Shown: in pieces, positions 25,987 through 55,172 of the stretch
Layout: the number at the start of each line of letters is the position of its first letter
Position numbering within the stretch: position 1 is the first letter of the stretch
Assembly: GCA_903890485.1 (NCBI GenBank)
Contig: CAITBM010000026.1
Coordinates: 1-64,000, forward strand
DNA from: an uncultured Opitutaceae bacterium
Lineage (GTDB): Bacteria > Verrucomicrobiota > Verrucomicrobiia > Opitutales > Opitutaceae
Length of the DNA stretch: 64,000 nucleotides
Direction of reading: 5' to 3'
Notes under the pieces: generated by a model
What the model was told of the DNA's origin: nothing
Databases searched by the model: none
Seen by the model: the letters and a program-made list of their open reading frames with translations, nothing else
Position numbers and translations under genes: made by a program

Positions 25987-27129
25987 TCAGCCGAGCGCCT
26001 GCTCGATATCGGCGACAAGGTCCCGGGTGTCCTCGAGGCCGACCGACATGCGAAGGAGGTCCGGCGGAGTCGCGCTCTGGGCTCCCTCGACGCTCGCACG
26101 GTGCTCGACTAGGCTCTCGACGCCCCCGAGCGAGGTCGCGCGCTTCCAAATCCTGAGCTTGCCGATGAAGCGGAGAGCCCCCGGTGCGCCGCCCTTCGCG
26201 CGAAGAGACAGCATGCCGCCGTAGCCTCCCTGCATCTGCCGGGACGCGACCGCGTGGCCGGGGAATGACGCAAGCCCGGGGTAGAGGACAGCCTCGAGTG
26301 CGCTGTGGCCGCTGAAGTGCTCGGCGATCGAAAGGGCGCTTCTACTCTGGGCGGGCACCCGAACAAAGAGAGTGCGCATCCCCCGCAGGAGGAGCCAGGC
26401 CTCGAAGGGCCCCAGGACGGTGCCGGATTGTGACCGCACCAGCTTGATCGCAGCCCAGAGCTCGTTGACGCTGCGCGTGGTCAGGGATCCGGCGATCACG
26501 TCGGAGTGCCCGTTAAGGTACTTTGTGGCGGAGTGCATCACCAGGTCGGCCCCAAGCGAGAGCGGCCGCGTGTGGACGGGGGTGGCGAACGTCGAGTCGA
26601 CCGCCAGGATCGCCCCGGCGCCGTGGGCTAGGGAGGCGAGTGCTGCGATGTCACACACATCCAGGGTGGGGTTTGCCGGCGTTTCCGCCCAGACCAGGCG
26701 GGTTACCCCGGGGCGGATCGCGGCGGCAACCTTGGCCGTGTCCGCCATGTCCACGAACTCCACCTGGAGGCCCCAGGTGGTGGCCCACCCGCGAAGCCAT
26801 CCGCGGAGCGCCCAATAGATCACGTGGGGCACGAGCACGTGGTCGCCCGGCCTTAGCGCCGAGAAAACCGCCGTCGCTGCGCTCATCCCCGAGCTGAAAA
26901 CGGCGCTTGCGGCCCCGCCCTCCAGGTAGGAGATCAGCGCCTCGGGCTGGTCGTAGTTAGGGTTGTCCGCCCGCGAGTAGAGCCGCCCGGAGACCAGGCG
27001 GTTGTCGGGGTCGCGCTCATAGGTTGTCGCGGGCTGGATGGGCGGGACAAAGGCGCCCGTGGACGGGTCTGTGAACCCGAGGGCCTGGGCTGCGGCGGTG
27101 GAGGGATGGACCCGGTCGGGAAGGCTCAT
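25987..27129 (-). CDS. Cystathionine gamma-synthase-family PLP enzyme, third gene of the RuBisCO-like-protein operon
   Basis: 380 residues from ATG 27129. It belongs to the Cys/Met-metabolism PLP family: 'FVPPIQPATTYERD', the PLP-stacking 'YSRADNPNYDQPEALISYLEGG', 'SSGMSAATAVFSAL', 'ETPANPTLDVCDI', and the Schiff-base lysine in 'MHSATKYLNGHSDVI'. Members include cystathionine gamma-synthase, gamma/beta-lyases and O-acyl-homoserine sulfhydrylases, and sequence alone does not separate them. It follows the cupin gene by 19 bases, which ends an RLP-cupin-PLP operon. In that context reuse of methanethiol (as an acyl-homoserine thiol-lyase) is an attractive role. It is distinct from the longer MetY encoded divergently at 28817. 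Confidence 0.85.
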   Translation of the reverse strand: MSLPDRVHPSTAAAQALGFTDPSTGAFVPPIQPATTYERDPDNRLVSGRLYSRADNPNYDQPEALISYLEGGAASAVFSSGMSAATAVFSALRPGDHVLVPHVIYWALRGWLRGWATTWGLQVEFVDMADTAKVAAAIRPGVTRLVWAETPANPTLDVCDIAALASLAHGAGAILAVDSTFATPVHTRPLSLGADLVMHSATKYLNGHSDVIAGSLTTRSVNELWAAIKLVRSQSGTVLGPFEAWLLLRGMRTLFVRVPAQSRSALSIAEHFSGHSALEAVLYPGLASFPGHAVASRQMQGGYGGMLSLRAKGGAPGALRFIGKLRIWKRATSLGGVESLVEHRASVEGAQSATPPDLLRMSVGLEDTRDLVADIEQALG

Positions 27130-27148
27130 GGTTTGGTTTCCGGGCCTG

Positions 27149-27601
27149 CTAGACCCTGATGAACGAGGCGACCGCCGGATCGGACCGGAGCGAAGCAAGG
27201 TCCTTTTCCGTAGGCAACGCGGGCTTGTCCCGCTCGCGCCTCACGATGCAGAGGAATCCAAGGGGCTCGGCTCCGGTCGCCTGGAACTGGTGCCAGGTCT
27301 GCGGCGGAACGCGGACCAGGTCGTGGAGGGCGAGGTCGATCACCTCACGCTCCACCAGGGCCCGCCCGGATCCGCGGATCACCATCACCGAGTGTGCGTG
27401 GTCATGGCGCTCGAGCGTGGAGTGCCCCCCTGGTGCGATTTCAAAATAGCGCAGCTGCGTATCGAAATGGTCCGCGTCGTCAAAAAGCACCTGGCGGGTG
27501 ATCGACTTGAAGTGGGTCCCCTTCTCCTCCTTGTAGGCGAGGACCGGCACGTCCTCCCACCGGAAGGGATCAGTCTGCGCGATGTGGGTCTTCGGTCTCA
27601 T
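27149..27601 (-). CDS. Cupin protein, candidate 1-methylthioxylulose-5-phosphate methylsulfurylase
   Basis: 150 residues, a single cupin barrel. Metal ligands are suggested by 'LERHDHAHSVMVIRG' (His66, His68, His70) and the later histidine in 'VPPQTWHQFQ' (His104). A lone late cysteine, Cys118 in 'PLGFLCIV', sits in the strand after the second motif. In Rhodospirillum rubrum a cupin encoded near the RuBisCO-like protein converts 1-methylthio-D-xylulose 5-phosphate to 1-deoxy-D-xylulose 5-phosphate, releasing methanethiol; as I recall, a cysteine at nearly the same position takes part there. The ATG overlaps the RLP stop by four bases (ATGA, 27598-27601), a strong sign of functional coupling. 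The assignment rests on fold plus context. Confidence 0.7.
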   Translation of the reverse strand: MRPKTHIAQTDPFRWEDVPVLAYKEEKGTHFKSITRQVLFDDADHFDTQLRYFEIAPGGHSTLERHDHAHSVMVIRGSGRALVEREVIDLALHDLVRVPPQTWHQFQATGAEPLGFLCIVRRERDKPALPTEKDLASLRSDPAVASFIRV

Positions 27602-28710
27602 GTTCGGTAGGGGAATGCGGCGGCGGCCTCCACGAATTGCCGGCCGCGCTCGGCCAAGGTGGCCGGGTCCGGCGCGTCAAGCAAGCTGCCGCCGACCAGA
27701 AGGATCGTATCCTTACCGTAGAAGCCGAGCACCTCGCGCAGGGTCTCCACCTTCATCCCGCCCGCCGGCACAGGAAAGGCCGGCCGGATCGCCCCAGGAG
27801 GCGACCGGAGCGCGGCGGCGATGGCACCGCATTCCTCTCGGCTGTAGCTGAAGCGTCCGCCGTAATTGGGATAGATTACCGCATCCGCCCCGAACAGGGG
27901 AAACAGGCGCCCGAGGAGGGCGGCCGGGGAGATGCGCTGGGCGCCGCCGAACGCGGGATGGGCCAGGATCGGCATGCCCAGGTCCGAGGCGATGTCCACG
28001 AGGAACGGCAATCCGATCAGCATCGGGGAGACCATCACGGCCTTCACGCCTGCTTCGCGGGCGACGCGCACCTGCTCCAGGACGGTCGCCGGGGAACCGG
28101 TCAGATTGGGGACATAGAGCGTGGGCCTGCCGGTCTCCTGGGCCGCCTCGTCCGTTGCCCGCAGGCATAGCCTCACGCGCTCGCCAAAAGGCCCGAAGGA
28201 ATGGTCTGCGTGCCCGTGGTCGTCCTTTACAATGTCGATGCCGCAACGTGCGAGGGCTCCGCAAAGGGAGGCCGTCTCCTGGTTGGTGAGCCCGATCGGC
28301 TTGAGGACCGACGCGGTGAGCGCCCTGCCTTGGACTCCGACCAGCTCGCGGATGCCCAAAATGCCGAATCGCGGCCCTCCAAGCATGCTTTCCAGGGCCG
28401 GCGTCAGGCGTACGTCCTCAAGGAGGACATCGGGCTGAAGCGAACAGTTGCCGAACAGGACGTTCAGGAGCTGGGCGGGGTCGTCCCCTGTCGCAAGTTC
28501 GGGCTGCGCAAGGGTTACCCGAAAATCATCGGGGCCGAGCTTCTCCATCGCGAGCACCTTGCCGACCAGGCGTTCCTTCACAAATGCAGTCCGGAGCGCC
28601 GAGCGCGGCAGTTCCACCGTCTGCTCAAGCAGCAGGGCCTCGATCCGCCCATGGAGGGCGTCCTCGCGGGAGCGCACGCGATATACCGCCTCGATGTGTC
28701 CGTCGGTCAT
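27598..28710 (-). CDS. RuBisCO-like protein (form IV), probable 5-methylthioribulose-1-phosphate isomerase
   Basis: 370 residues from ATG 28710 ('MTDGHIEAVYRVRS'); a long upstream in-frame extension would cross the divergent promoter and is rejected. RuBisCO-fold landmarks: 'LTASVLKPIGLTNQE' (Lys137 at the K175 position), 'GIDIVKDDHGHADH' (Lys162 and Asp164 at the K201/D203 positions, but His165 replaces E204), 'PILAHPAFGG', 'YPNYGGRFSYSREE', 'PAGGMKVETL' and 'LLVGGSLL' for the phosphate sites. There is no loop-6 lysine motif, so it is not a carboxylase. Length and the KDDH variant fit the R. rubrum-type RLP of the methylthioadenosine-isoprenoid shunt better than the MtnW enolase, and no mtnB/mtnX/mtnD genes are nearby. 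First gene of an operon with the cupin. Confidence 0.85.
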   Translation of the reverse strand: MTDGHIEAVYRVRSREDALHGRIEALLLEQTVELPRSALRTAFVKERLVGKVLAMEKLGPDDFRVTLAQPELATGDDPAQLLNVLFGNCSLQPDVLLEDVRLTPALESMLGGPRFGILGIRELVGVQGRALTASVLKPIGLTNQETASLCGALARCGIDIVKDDHGHADHSFGPFGERVRLCLRATDEAAQETGRPTLYVPNLTGSPATVLEQVRVAREAGVKAVMVSPMLIGLPFLVDIASDLGMPILAHPAFGGAQRISPAALLGRLFPLFGADAVIYPNYGGRFSYSREECGAIAAALRSPPGAIRPAFPVPAGGMKVETLREVLGFYGKDTILLVGGSLLDAPDPATLAERGRQFVEAAAAFPYRT

Positions 28711-28816
28711 GTCGGTCCACGCTACACTGAGCTGCTTCTGCCGGAAGCAGAAATGAGGGTTATGACCCAATCTTACTTTGCATTGTTTTTGGGCGCCCCC
28801 TATTCCCTGCAAGGTT
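28711..28816. promoter_or_regulatory. Divergent RLP operon / metY intergenic region with hairpin
   Basis: This 106-base gap must contain the promoters of both the RLP operon (minus) and the metY operon (plus). It holds a perfect inverted repeat, CTGCTTC at 28732-28738 and GAAGCAG at 28744-28750, with a five-base loop. This could be a repressor operator or a leader hairpin shared by two sulfur-metabolism operons. The gap is too short for a typical SAM-I riboswitch and no such motif was seen. Confidence 0.4.
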
Positions 28817-30118
28817 GTGAGCAACGCCGCAGATCCCCGCAGATTCGGGTTTGAGACACGCATGGTCCACGCCGGTCACATCCCGGATGCCGAGACCGGG
28901 GCGAGGGCGGTGCCCATATACCAGACGACATCGTTCGTCTTTGACGACGCCGAGCAGGCCGCCCAGCTCTTCGAGCTCAAGCAGTACGGGAACATCTATT
29001 CGAGGATCAGCAATCCGACCACCGCTGTGTTCGAGGAGCGGATGGCGTCCCTGGAGGGTGCCACGGGCGCGCTGGCCACGGCCAGCGGGATGGCCGCCCA
29101 GCTGGTCACCTTCCTCACGCTCCTGGTCCCGGGCGACGAGATCGTGGCCTCCTCGCAGCTTTACGGGGGATCGATCACCCAGCTCGTTCACACGCTTAAG
29201 AAGTTCTCGATTGGCGTCCGTTTTGTGGACCCCACCAGGATCGAGGACTGGGAGGCGGCTATCACGCCCAAGACCAAGGCCCTCTACGGGGAGACCATCG
29301 GCAATCCCCGGGGTGCGGTCCTCGACATAGCCCGCTTAGCCGCCCTTGCGGCCTCCAAGGCGATCCCGCTCATCGTCGACAACACGATGGCGACGCCGGC
29401 GCTCTCCAGGCCCATCGAGCACGGGGCGACCCTCGTGGTCCACTCGGCCACCAAATTCATAGGAGGGCACGGGACGACGCTTGGAGGGGTGCTCCTTGAC
29501 TCGGGCAAGTTCGACTTCAGCCAGTACCCCAGCATCGCGGCCCCCTCGCCGGCCTACCACGACCTCCGGTTCTTCGACACCTTCGGCCACTATGGATTCC
29601 TGATGAAGGCCCGGGCGGAGACCCTCCGGGACACGGGAGCATGCCTTTCCCCTTTCAGCGCGTTCCTCTTGATCCAGGGGCTTGAGACGCTCTCCCTTCG
29701 CATGGAGCGCCAATCTGCATCGGCCCTCCGGGTCGCAAAATTCCTGGAGGGGCACAAGTCGGTCGCATGGGTCGCGTATGCCGGGTTGCCGAGCCATCCC
29801 GACCATGCACTCGCCCAGAAATACCTTCCCCAGGGGGCGGGCGCCGTCTTCTCGTTCGGGCTGAAGGCGGGTTCCCCGGGGGAAAGCCGGGCGGCGGGCC
29901 GCAAATTCATCGAGGCCCTTCAGCTCTTCTCCCACCTCGCCAATATCGGCGACGTCAGGAGCCTGGTGATCCATCCGGCCTCGACCACCCACCAGCAGCT
30001 CTCCGACGAGGAGCTCGCGAAGGGCGGGGTGACGCCCGAATTGATCCGCCTGTCAATCGGCCTCGAGAACGTGGAGGACCTCATATGGGACCTGGACCAG
30101 GCATTGCTTGCGCCGTGA
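28817..30118 (+). CDS. metY: O-acetylhomoserine sulfhydrylase (acyl-homoserine thiol-lyase)
   Basis: 433 residues from GTG 28817 ('VSNAADPRRFGFETRMVHAG'); an upstream TTG at 28778 gives an implausible leader. MetY features: 'FETRMVHAGHIPDAETGARA', 'VPIYQTTSFVFDD', 'YSRISNPTTAVFEERMASLEG', 'GGSITQLVHTLKKF' and the PLP lysine in 'VHSATKFIGGHGTTLGGVL'. Length over 420 and the 'HGTTLGG' segment mark MetY rather than cystathionine gamma-synthase. It makes homocysteine from sulfide, or methionine from methanethiol, plus O-acetylhomoserine. Its place opposite the RLP/cupin operon suggests that it recaptures methanethiol. Its stop overlaps the next gene's GTG start. Confidence 0.93.
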   Translation: MSNAADPRRFGFETRMVHAGHIPDAETGARAVPIYQTTSFVFDDAEQAAQLFELKQYGNIYSRISNPTTAVFEERMASLEGATGALATASGMAAQLVTFLTLLVPGDEIVASSQLYGGSITQLVHTLKKFSIGVRFVDPTRIEDWEAAITPKTKALYGETIGNPRGAVLDIARLAALAASKAIPLIVDNTMATPALSRPIEHGATLVVHSATKFIGGHGTTLGGVLLDSGKFDFSQYPSIAAPSPAYHDLRFFDTFGHYGFLMKARAETLRDTGACLSPFSAFLLIQGLETLSLRMERQSASALRVAKFLEGHKSVAWVAYAGLPSHPDHALAQKYLPQGAGAVFSFGLKAGSPGESRAAGRKFIEALQLFSHLANIGDVRSLVIHPASTTHQQLSDEELAKGGVTPELIRLSIGLENVEDLIWDLDQALLAP

Positions 30119-30621
30119 CCCTTAACTCGGCGCTGACGCCCGAGCAGCAGAAGAGGTTCCAGGATCCCCTGGTGATCCAGCGCCTGCTGCGCGACACCCG
30201 AACGATCGCGGTCGTGGGCCTGTCGACGGACCCGCAGCGCGCAAGCTGGTTTGTCGCCAGCTATCTGAAGAAGGCCGGCTACCGGGTGATCCCGGTGAAC
30301 CCCAAGGCCGACCGGATACTGGGAGAGACCTGTTATCCGGACCTGGCAAGCATTCCCGGGACTGTCGACATGGTGGATGTTTTTCGTCCTGCCGCCGAGT
30401 GCCTGGCTGTGGCCCGGCAGGCCGCGGCCATCGGTGCCAGGTCCCTTTGGCTCCAGCTCAAGCTCGTGAACATCGAGGCAGCGGAGCTGGCCGCGTCGAG
30501 CGGAATGGCGGTGGTGATCGACCGCTGCGTCAAGATGGAGCATGGGCGCTATCACGGCGGCCTGCACTTCGCGGGCATGAACACCGAGATCATCTCGGCC
30601 CGCCGGCAGCGAAGGGACTAG
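30115..30621 (+). CDS. CoA-binding domain protein (YccU-like)
   Basis: 168 residues. The GTG at 30115 overlaps the metY stop in the tetranucleotide GTGA, indicating translational coupling. A Rossmann-type CoA-binding domain is visible: 'TRTIAVVGLSTDPQRASWFVA' (glycine-rich loop), 'YRVIPVNPKADRILGETCYPDL', 'VDMVDVFRPAAECLAVARQA', 'SLWLQLKLVN', and the closing 'VIDRCVKMEHGRY'. Homologues resemble the CoA-ligase alpha domain without the ligase part. Their physiological role is poorly known. The link to metY suggests a part in sulfur or acyl-homoserine metabolism, though no direct evidence is visible. Confidence 0.88.
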   Translation: MTLNSALTPEQQKRFQDPLVIQRLLRDTRTIAVVGLSTDPQRASWFVASYLKKAGYRVIPVNPKADRILGETCYPDLASIPGTVDMVDVFRPAAECLAVARQAAAIGARSLWLQLKLVNIEAAELAASSGMAVVIDRCVKMEHGRYHGGLHFAGMNTEIISARRQRRD

Positions 30622-54690: not shown

Positions 54691-55168
54691 TAGCTTTGGG
54701 GCCAGGTCGTCGCTCCAAGTTCTTTGATCCCAAGGCGCGGGTAACGCCGCGTCCGTTAGAAACTTGGAGAGGAAAGTCCGGACACCACAGGGCAGGATGC
54801 TGCTCGAGCCCACAAGGCAAGAGCAGGCACCGCGGTTCAAGCCGCGGTGACGGACAGTGTCACAGAGAACAGACCGCCGCGCGGGAGCCTTCGGGCGGCC
54901 GTGCGGTAAGGGTGAAAAGGTGGGGTAAGAGCCCACCGCGCATCGCCGCGAGGCGTGCGGCACGAAAAACCCCTTCCGGTGCAAGACAAAATAGGAGACT
55001 GGACGGCCCGTCCTAGAGTCTCGGGTATGTCGCACCTCTCCGCTCCCCGCGTGGCTCCGCCGTGCGGGGGGACGGTCGGGCGGGCCCCCTAAAAAAGGGC
55101 GCGAGAGAAATGACGGCCGATGCGCCGCAAGGCGCGGGACAGAATCCGGCTTAAAGGCCCCAAAGCTA
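54691..55168 (+). ncRNA. rnpB: RNase P RNA (bacterial type A)
   Basis: The catalytic RNA of RNase P, which trims the 5' ends of tRNA precursors. The two universal halves of helix P4 are present: GAGGAAAGTCCGGAC at 54769-54783 and ACAGAATCCGGCTTA at 55139-55153. A 13-base closing helix P1 pairs TAGCTTTGGGGCC (54691-54703) with GGCCCCAAAGCTA (55156-55168), which sets both ends. Another strong local stem pairs CTCCAAGTT (54713-54721) with AACTTGGAG (54761-54769). Length is about 478 bases, longer than the roughly 380-420 of typical type A RNAs, through extra GC-rich sequence in the 3' half. Any reading frame here is chance. Confidence 0.95.
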
Positions 55169-55172
55169 AATT

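Follow-up and report, generated by a model that had tools for sequence, protein, structure and literature searches.

The window studied here, a stretch of 64,000 nucleotides (bases 1-64000 of contig 26) from a genome of the family Opitutaceae, phylum Verrucomicrobiota, carries a gene cluster built around a RuBisCO-like protein (RLP) and a cupin. We propose, with a probability of roughly 0.85, that this locus encodes the distinctive steps of the 5'-methylthioadenosine (MTA)-isoprenoid shunt, as in Rhodospirillum rubrum and Rhodopseudomonas palustris, together with a linked enzyme that would convert methanethiol to methionine. The shunt had been suggested by a first-pass annotation made from the DNA letters, and it is supported by the clade of the RLP, by a genome that holds mtnA as well as an MTAP-like gene and gave no match to mtnC or mtnD, and by a gene layout that recurs in related genomes. 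The same annotation had named a "probable Verrucomicrobium", of which the phylum holds and the genus does not. The source genome comprises 3.1 Mb in 144 contigs and is 97.0% complete and 2.1% contaminated.

The shunt scenario itself, though seldom described, has already been published for other bacteria (PMC4958253, PMC5893883; these papers and PMC10663253 are cited throughout from the sections available to us). What is new is a proposed shunt locus in Opitutaceae and Verrucomicrobiota, a phylum unlisted for the shunt in the available sections of PMC5893883 and PMC10663253, and its linkage to a predicted methionine-forming gene. By way of the shunt, getting rid of a toxic by-product of S-adenosylmethionine is tied to isoprenoid supply and frees methanethiol, a gas that takes part in the global sulfur cycle; the linked metY leads to the prediction that the cells recover methanethiol and do not lose it.

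Organization of the locus

The genes for the RLP, the cupin and a pyridoxal phosphate (PLP)-dependent enzyme resembling cystathionine gamma-synthase (CGS) follow one another on the minus strand. The RLP stop and the cupin start have ATGA in common, and 19 bp separate the cupin stop from the start of the CGS-like gene. Divergently, on the plus strand, lie metY and a gene for a CoA-binding protein, whose GTG start overlaps the metY stop in GTGA. These five genes, the ATGA overlap and the coupling of the divergent metY to the CoA-binding gene had all been described before and were found again at the same positions. The start codons of the RLP gene (ATG, 28710), metY (GTG, 28817) and the CoA-binding gene (GTG, 30115) were inferred from the reading frames and an alignment within the genus.

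27598..28710, minus strand: RLP, DeepYkr type, predicted 5-methylthioribulose-1-phosphate 1,3-isomerase (Pfam, tree, conserved columns)
27149..27601, minus strand: cupin, predicted 1-methylthioxylulose-5-phosphate methylsulfurylase (likeness to Rru_A2000, ATGA overlap with the RLP gene)
25987..27129, minus strand: CGS-like PLP enzyme of a divergent subfamily, third gene of a predicted operon (Pfam, NCBIfam scores, alignment)
28711..28816, no strand: divergent intergenic region between the RLP gene and metY (sequence and genus alignment)
28743..28753, minus strand: conserved block TTTCTGCTTCC upstream of the RLP gene (without a mismatch in 8 of the 9 distinct genomes compared)
28719..28727, minus strand: conserved block GTGTAGCGT directly ahead of the RLP start (likewise without a mismatch in 8 of 9)
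28817..30118, plus strand: metY, O-acetylhomoserine sulfhydrylase family, predicted methanethiol-to-methionine step (TIGR01326)
30115..30621, plus strand: CoA_binding_2 protein (PF13380, 136.7 bits; GTGA overlap with the metY stop)

The RLP is of the DeepYkr type

The RLP matches the Pfam family RuBisCO_large with 64.9 bits and is the only such match in the source genome. Its closest solved structure is 3qfw (E 2e-88), which we take to be an RLP of R. palustris, and the MtnW structures follow at E 1.4e-39 and weaker. In a quick 90-row tree, the window RLP falls within a clade of 76 rows (SH-aLRT support 100) that holds 3qfw and the R. palustris locus L114; 3qfw is placed with the Rhodopseudomonas RLPs (SH-aLRT 100), and both MtnW rows form a separate group with 4nas outside the clade. 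Because 25 of the 87 forks are open and some branches are long, finer placement is unsure. Among 47 cupin-linked RLPs, 3qfw included and all from outside Opitutaceae, 69 columns are conserved; the window protein keeps 66 of them, and 18 of the 20 among them that differ from MtnW.

A rival reading makes the RLP an MtnW-type enolase of ordinary methionine salvage. It does score with the MtnW models, at 180.2 and 137.9 bits, far under their cut-offs of 409 and 513.6, and both the tree and 18 of the 20 separating columns side with the cupin-linked RLPs. Furthermore, mtnD, encoding acireductone dioxygenase, and mtnC, encoding the enolase-phosphatase, had no match at E 1 in the source genome, in a search that did not take in mtnX and mtnK. 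Three of the four class II aldolase proteins in the genome were scanned, and none was over the mtnB cut-off. The first-pass annotation had expected an RLP of the R. rubrum type and had argued against the enolase pathway; the grouping with the R. palustris RLPs and the search for mtnB, mtnC and mtnD agree with it. An MtnW-type enzyme is thus hardly credible, and we rejected it. We conclude that the window RLP is a DeepYkr-type form IV RLP and not MtnW.

RuBisCO-family matches were found in 21 of 387 genomes evenly sampled from the phylum. The second close RLP in this sample, from genome G008, is 41% identical to the window RLP over 348 residues (E 1.5e-73), with the next phylum match at E 2e-25, and no cupin was found in the 18 kb examined. 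OiaX was the best-scoring model for three of the four other RLPs scanned as partial proteins.

The cupin resembles Rru_A2000

The closest solved structure to the cupin is 3jzv, deposited as Rru_A2000 (E 4.8e-49), and 79 of 136 residues are identical to those of Rru_A2000 (58%). In a set of 54 other cupins that includes Rru_A2000, 35 positions are conserved to 95% or more, and the window cupin keeps all 35 of these positions. These include H66, H68, H104 and a WHQF segment; histidines of this kind bind metal in cupins.

We also considered spread of the module by plasmids and saw little sign of it: at E 1e-15 the cupin occurred in only 2 of 72,556 plasmid records, once adjoining an RLP and once without an annotated RLP. 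The first, a plasmid of Terrarubrum flagellatum (L202:3831-6378), has the RLP-cupin pair followed by cysE, another sulfur-amino-acid gene adjoining the module. In the second, a Thiodictyon plasmid (L201:2489-5411), a cupin of the Rru_A2000 type stands beside 5-oxoprolinase genes with no annotated RLP nearby; since 5-oxoproline is tied to glutathione turnover, a thiol link is possible for this cupin.

The RLP-cupin pair recurs with its neighbours

An RLP alignment, used to scan species genomes, matched at least 595 stretches, of which 487 were confirmed and the best 80 kept as named loci. We also searched 252 Opitutaceae genomes, 13 of them from the genus of the window. The cupin lies downstream of the RLP on the same strand and within 400 bp in 59 of the 80 named loci. 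In the family, the cupin query matched in 73 of the 252 genomes, strongly (E 1.1e-59 or better) in 12 only, and the RLP adjoins the cupin in all 12. Six of these 12 loci have a 300-base piece in common with named loci and were counted as the same genomes. Given 59 of 80 named and 12 of 12 family loci, the adjacency is not due to chance. Nine of the 12 belong to the genus of the window, so that 9 of its 13 genomes carry the pair. Among the 80 named loci, pairs also occur in Gemmatimonadales, Acidimicrobiaceae, Kapaibacterium, an acidobacterium and a Caldilineaceae genome. Three metagenome-assembled genomes (MAGs) titled Klebsiella pneumoniae (L069, L079, L084) have such loci and are probably mislabelled records: in the tree, L069 and L079 cluster with other proteobacterial MAGs, and L084 was omitted for its closeness to L083.

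The flanking genes recur as well. A CGS-like gene is adjacent to or within 1.5 kb of the pair in 10 of the 12 family loci. In 9 of them metY adjoins the pair in divergent orientation, and in a tenth (L052) it lies some 2.6 kb upstream. Within 1.5 kb, neither gene was found in L167 and no metY in L169. The RLP-cupin-PLP layout, which had been noticed in the window alone, is therefore a recurring one in Opitutaceae. Among the 80 named loci, a PLP gene of Cys/Met metabolism was present in the stretch examined in 8, six of them Opitutaceae. One locus outside the family, from Acidimicrobiaceae (L096), has metY and a CoA-binding gene adjoining the pair, and an alphaproteobacterial one (L060) has a gene over the cut-off of PRK07811, cystathionine gamma-synthase, about 3.6 kb after the cupin.

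The metY, CoA-binding and CGS-like genes might be neighbours by lineage only, serving ordinary sulfide assimilation and not methanethiol capture. As 9 of the 12 family loci come from one genus, much of the synteny may indeed be inherited, and CGS-like relatives occur on alphaproteobacterial plasmids, where three surroundings have no annotated RLP within 5 kb. On the other hand, these genes stay near the RLP-cupin pair through rearrangements, as in L052, where they are shifted; in another genus, L168 keeps metY and L169 the CGS-like gene adjoining the RLP; metY adjoins the pair in Acidimicrobiaceae too; and the divergent promoter region is kept in blocks. Shared lineage is less likely than a role of these genes in the shunt, though with a real chance.

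metY, the CGS-like gene and the divergent region

The metY product scored 593.3 bits with TIGR01326 (cut-off 495.1), and its assignment to the O-acetylhomoserine sulfhydrylase family is solid. It was one of "two thiol-handling PLP enzymes" in the first-pass annotation; the part concerning metY stands, and the CGS-like protein, which turned out to belong to a divergent subfamily, is a putative thiol-handling enzyme only.

The CGS-like protein matches Cys_Met_Meta_PP with 349 bits. Its best score was with cystathionine gamma-synthase, yet it was under the cut-off of all 25 NCBIfam models listed (of 47 matched), reaching 361.9 bits with the MetB equivalog (cut-off 513). The MetB structure 3qhx has YGGT where the window protein has YWAL and the window and all six Opitutaceae orthologues aligned have YWA(L/F). 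The MTH loop of 3qhx, a short C-terminal loop in these proteins, is five residues shorter in the window and the six orthologues. The YGG(T/S) and MTH segments are presumably typical of MetB. With both segments altered and the score under the equivalog cut-off, we rejected a true MetB. The gene likewise does not appear specific to RLPs: relatives occur on 739 plasmid records, the 15 best being 52-63% identical (Azospirillum, Cereibacter, Ensifer and others) and annotated merely as PLP-dependent enzymes or not at all, and no RLP is annotated within 5 kb in the three plasmid surroundings read, whose gene tables PLSDB describes as incomplete. The CGS-like enzyme probably acts in the same sulfur branch as MetY.

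The intergenic region was aligned over nine distinct genomes (13 rows, four of them duplicates), leaving out L052, L167 and L169. The sole exception to the exact identity of TTTCTGCTTCC and GTGTAGCGT is L168, from another genus. The window holds one match to each block, against an expectation of 1.03 for TTTCTGCTTCC with one mismatch allowed and of 0.21 for GTGTAGCGT. A function of both blocks is suggested because they are kept between genomes, and not because they are rare in the window.

Other pathway genes and the proposed pathway

The remaining genes were sought elsewhere in the genome. The product of mtnA (contig 112) is over the TIGR00512 cut-off. An MTAP-family gene on contig 79 scored 164.6 bits against an equivalog cut-off of 274.85, and the solved structures closest to its product are MTA phosphorylases. 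Thus, of the two upstream genes that the first-pass annotation looked to the genome for, mtnA is present and mtnP has a candidate below the equivalog cut-off. The metX product is over the NF001209 cut-off and under that of TIGR01392. We also considered a genome without dxs in which the shunt replaces DXS, and rejected it: dxs is present and its product over the cut-off, so the shunt would supplement isoprenoid supply and not replace DXS.

Every reaction of the following scheme is a prediction for this organism. MTA would be phosphorolysed by the product of the MTA-phosphorylase-like gene, and MtnA would isomerise the product to 5-methylthioribulose-1-phosphate. The RLP would then shift protons to form 1-methylthioxylulose-5-phosphate, from which the cupin would take off the methylthio group, yielding methanethiol (in R. 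rubrum, a glutathione adduct) and 1-deoxyxylulose-5-phosphate (DXP). The latter could enter the methylerythritol phosphate (MEP) pathway alongside the DXS product, and MetY would join methanethiol to an O-acylhomoserine made by MetX to give methionine.

Several observations weigh against this scheme. The evidence consists of sequence and gene context (genes and their order, phylogeny, conserved residues and co-occurrence). For 21 of the 80 named close RLPs the stretch examined contains no cupin (the contig ends within 1 kb in 4 of the 21), so this RLP type is not always paired with a neighbouring cupin, and the RLP match of one family locus (L164, identical to L067) is broken across two frames. 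Both mtnA and the MTAP-like gene lie outside the locus, the product of the latter under the MTA phosphorylase equivalog cut-off and the former tied to an aldolase/short-chain dehydrogenase (SDR) gene. Since 136 of the 387 sampled phylum genomes have mtnA, this gene alone is weak support; a close RLP, by comparison, occurs in only 2 of the 387, the window's own genome and G008. Within the genus, mtnA is present in 8 of 9 strong-cupin genomes (one of the eight genes is partial at a contig end, and completeness is 64% in the cupin genome that lacks it) as against 1 of 4 genomes without the cupin, a borderline co-occurrence (Fisher p 0.052) among related genomes.

A possible second branch through an aldolase/SDR fusion

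The gene tied to mtnA (L028:2669-5730, contig 112) encodes an aldolase/SDR fusion over the NF006196 cut-off (1013.8 bits, cut-off 831) and overlaps mtnA by GTGA. Because of this overlap, a second branch, the dihydroxyacetone phosphate (DHAP) shunt, probably competes with the RLP-cupin pair for methylthioribulose-phosphate, part of which would pass through the fusion to DHAP and methylthioethanol. The organism may run both shunts side by side, by analogy with R. palustris, and the alcohol dehydrogenase still missing from the DHAP shunt would have a candidate in the SDR domain. Since models related to NF006196 are named for rhamnulose-1-phosphate, we treat this branch as tentative.

A stronger version would make the DHAP shunt the main fate of MTA, with the RLP-cupin pair secondary or acting on another 5-substituted ribulose-1-phosphate, for example 5-deoxyribulose-1-phosphate. 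The overlap speaks for it, as do the simultaneous operation of both shunts in R. palustris (PMC5893883) and the mtnA-aldolase/SDR pair, kept at 7 of the genus's 9 mtnA loci and missing from the cupin-bearing G541 and the cupin-less G537. This support is offset by the naming of the related models and by the cupin-bearing G541, whose mtnA has no adjoining fusion. Among the 30 best mtnA loci of the phylum (of 136 genomes, within 1.5 kb), the pairing was found in one only, the window's own. We know of no activity on 5-methylthioribulose-1-phosphate in NF006196-type aldolases, and a deoxy substrate would give the conserved cupin no methylthio group to take off. We therefore consider a dominant DHAP shunt unlikely, though with some real chance, and keep the MTA-isoprenoid shunt as the preferred reading.

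A doubtful, more speculative extension is a closed MTA-to-methionine unit, in which the CGS-like enzyme would use the methylthio product of the cupin (methanethiol or a thiol adduct) directly, methylthioribulose-1-phosphate would be split between DXP and DHAP, and the fused SDR domain would be the DHAP-shunt alcohol dehydrogenase.

Comparison with known systems

The MTA-isoprenoid shunt is known in R. rubrum (PMC4958253). The window resembles that system (RLP Rru_A1998, cupin Rru_A2000) in the RLP type and the cupin, and its genome in having mtnA, an MTAP-like gene and an available O-acetylhomoserine sulfhydrylase. The window differs in that the cupin overlaps the RLP gene and that the CGS-like gene and metY flank the pair; the R. 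rubrum sulfhydrylases are far off by locus tag (Rru_A0774, Rru_A0784), unlike the linked metY (PMC4958253).

For R. palustris, RLP1 is reported to be a 5-methylthioribulose-1-phosphate isomerase and the cupin a methylsulfurylase, on the basis of deletions and metabolites (PMC5893883). Their locus tags are consecutive (RPA2169, RPA2170), and the window RLP is in the same clade. That organism runs the MTA-isoprenoid and DHAP-methanethiol shunts together, and its DHAP-methanethiol shunt uses a class II aldolase and an alcohol dehydrogenase still to be identified (PMC5893883). A branch through a class II aldolase would be common to both organisms, although in the window's genome the aldolase is fused to an SDR and overlaps mtnA. 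The four sulfhydrylase homologues of R. palustris have locus tags far from the RLP, unlike the linked metY (PMC5893883).

With the DHAP-methanethiol and DHAP-ethylene shunts (MtnP, MtnA, Ald2) the genome shares MtnA and a class II aldolase domain, the latter in a PRK08324-type aldolase/SDR fusion that is a candidate only, in place of the stand-alone Ald2. The MtnW enolase pathway of Bacillus subtilis has the RuBisCO superfamily in common with the window; it differs in that MtnW falls outside the window RLP clade and that no mtnC or mtnD was found.

RLP-cupin homologues have been reported from at least 25 species, of which 13 are proteobacteria, 9 Firmicutes and 2 Deinococcus (PMC5893883), and of 181 candidates in which dxs alone was missing, 5 had both RLP and cupin (PMC10663253). 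The available sections of PMC5893883 do not mention Verrucomicrobiota, and those of PMC10663253 name the phylum for IspG only. A literature search on methionine salvage and RuBisCO-like proteins in Verrucomicrobiota returned, in the accessible texts, nothing tying RLPs to the phylum.

Further observations

Same-clade RLPs without a cupin in the stretch examined include nine from Eremiobacterota/WPS-2 (L074, L080, L082, L085, L086, L088, L102, L103, L113) and five from Verrucomicrobia (L054, L056, L057, L059, L062); for L062, L082 and L088 the contig end is less than 1 kb from the RLP. In Clostridia, other Bacillota, Thermotogae and Pirellulaceae (L098, L110, L117, L119, L121, L122), cupin-less close RLPs have two genes ahead of them, one of about 310 and the other of about 335 amino acids. 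In L098 these match the two halves of transketolase, and the gene order in L121 is mtnK-mtnA-tktN-tktC-RLP. Such neighbours suggest that the RLP product is put to another use here, perhaps cleaved in a phosphoketolase-like reaction that frees methanethiol.

In Thauera relatives and a gammaproteobacterial MAG (L078, L081, L089, L094), CoA_binding_2-like genes, 51-58% identical to that of the window, lie about 0.9-2.2 kb upstream of the RLP-cupin pair, with no metY match in the stretch examined. Riboswitch control of the locus was considered and set aside, as no Rfam family matched there at gathering scores; the only Rfam match in the window is a bacterial class A RNase P RNA at 54697-55169.

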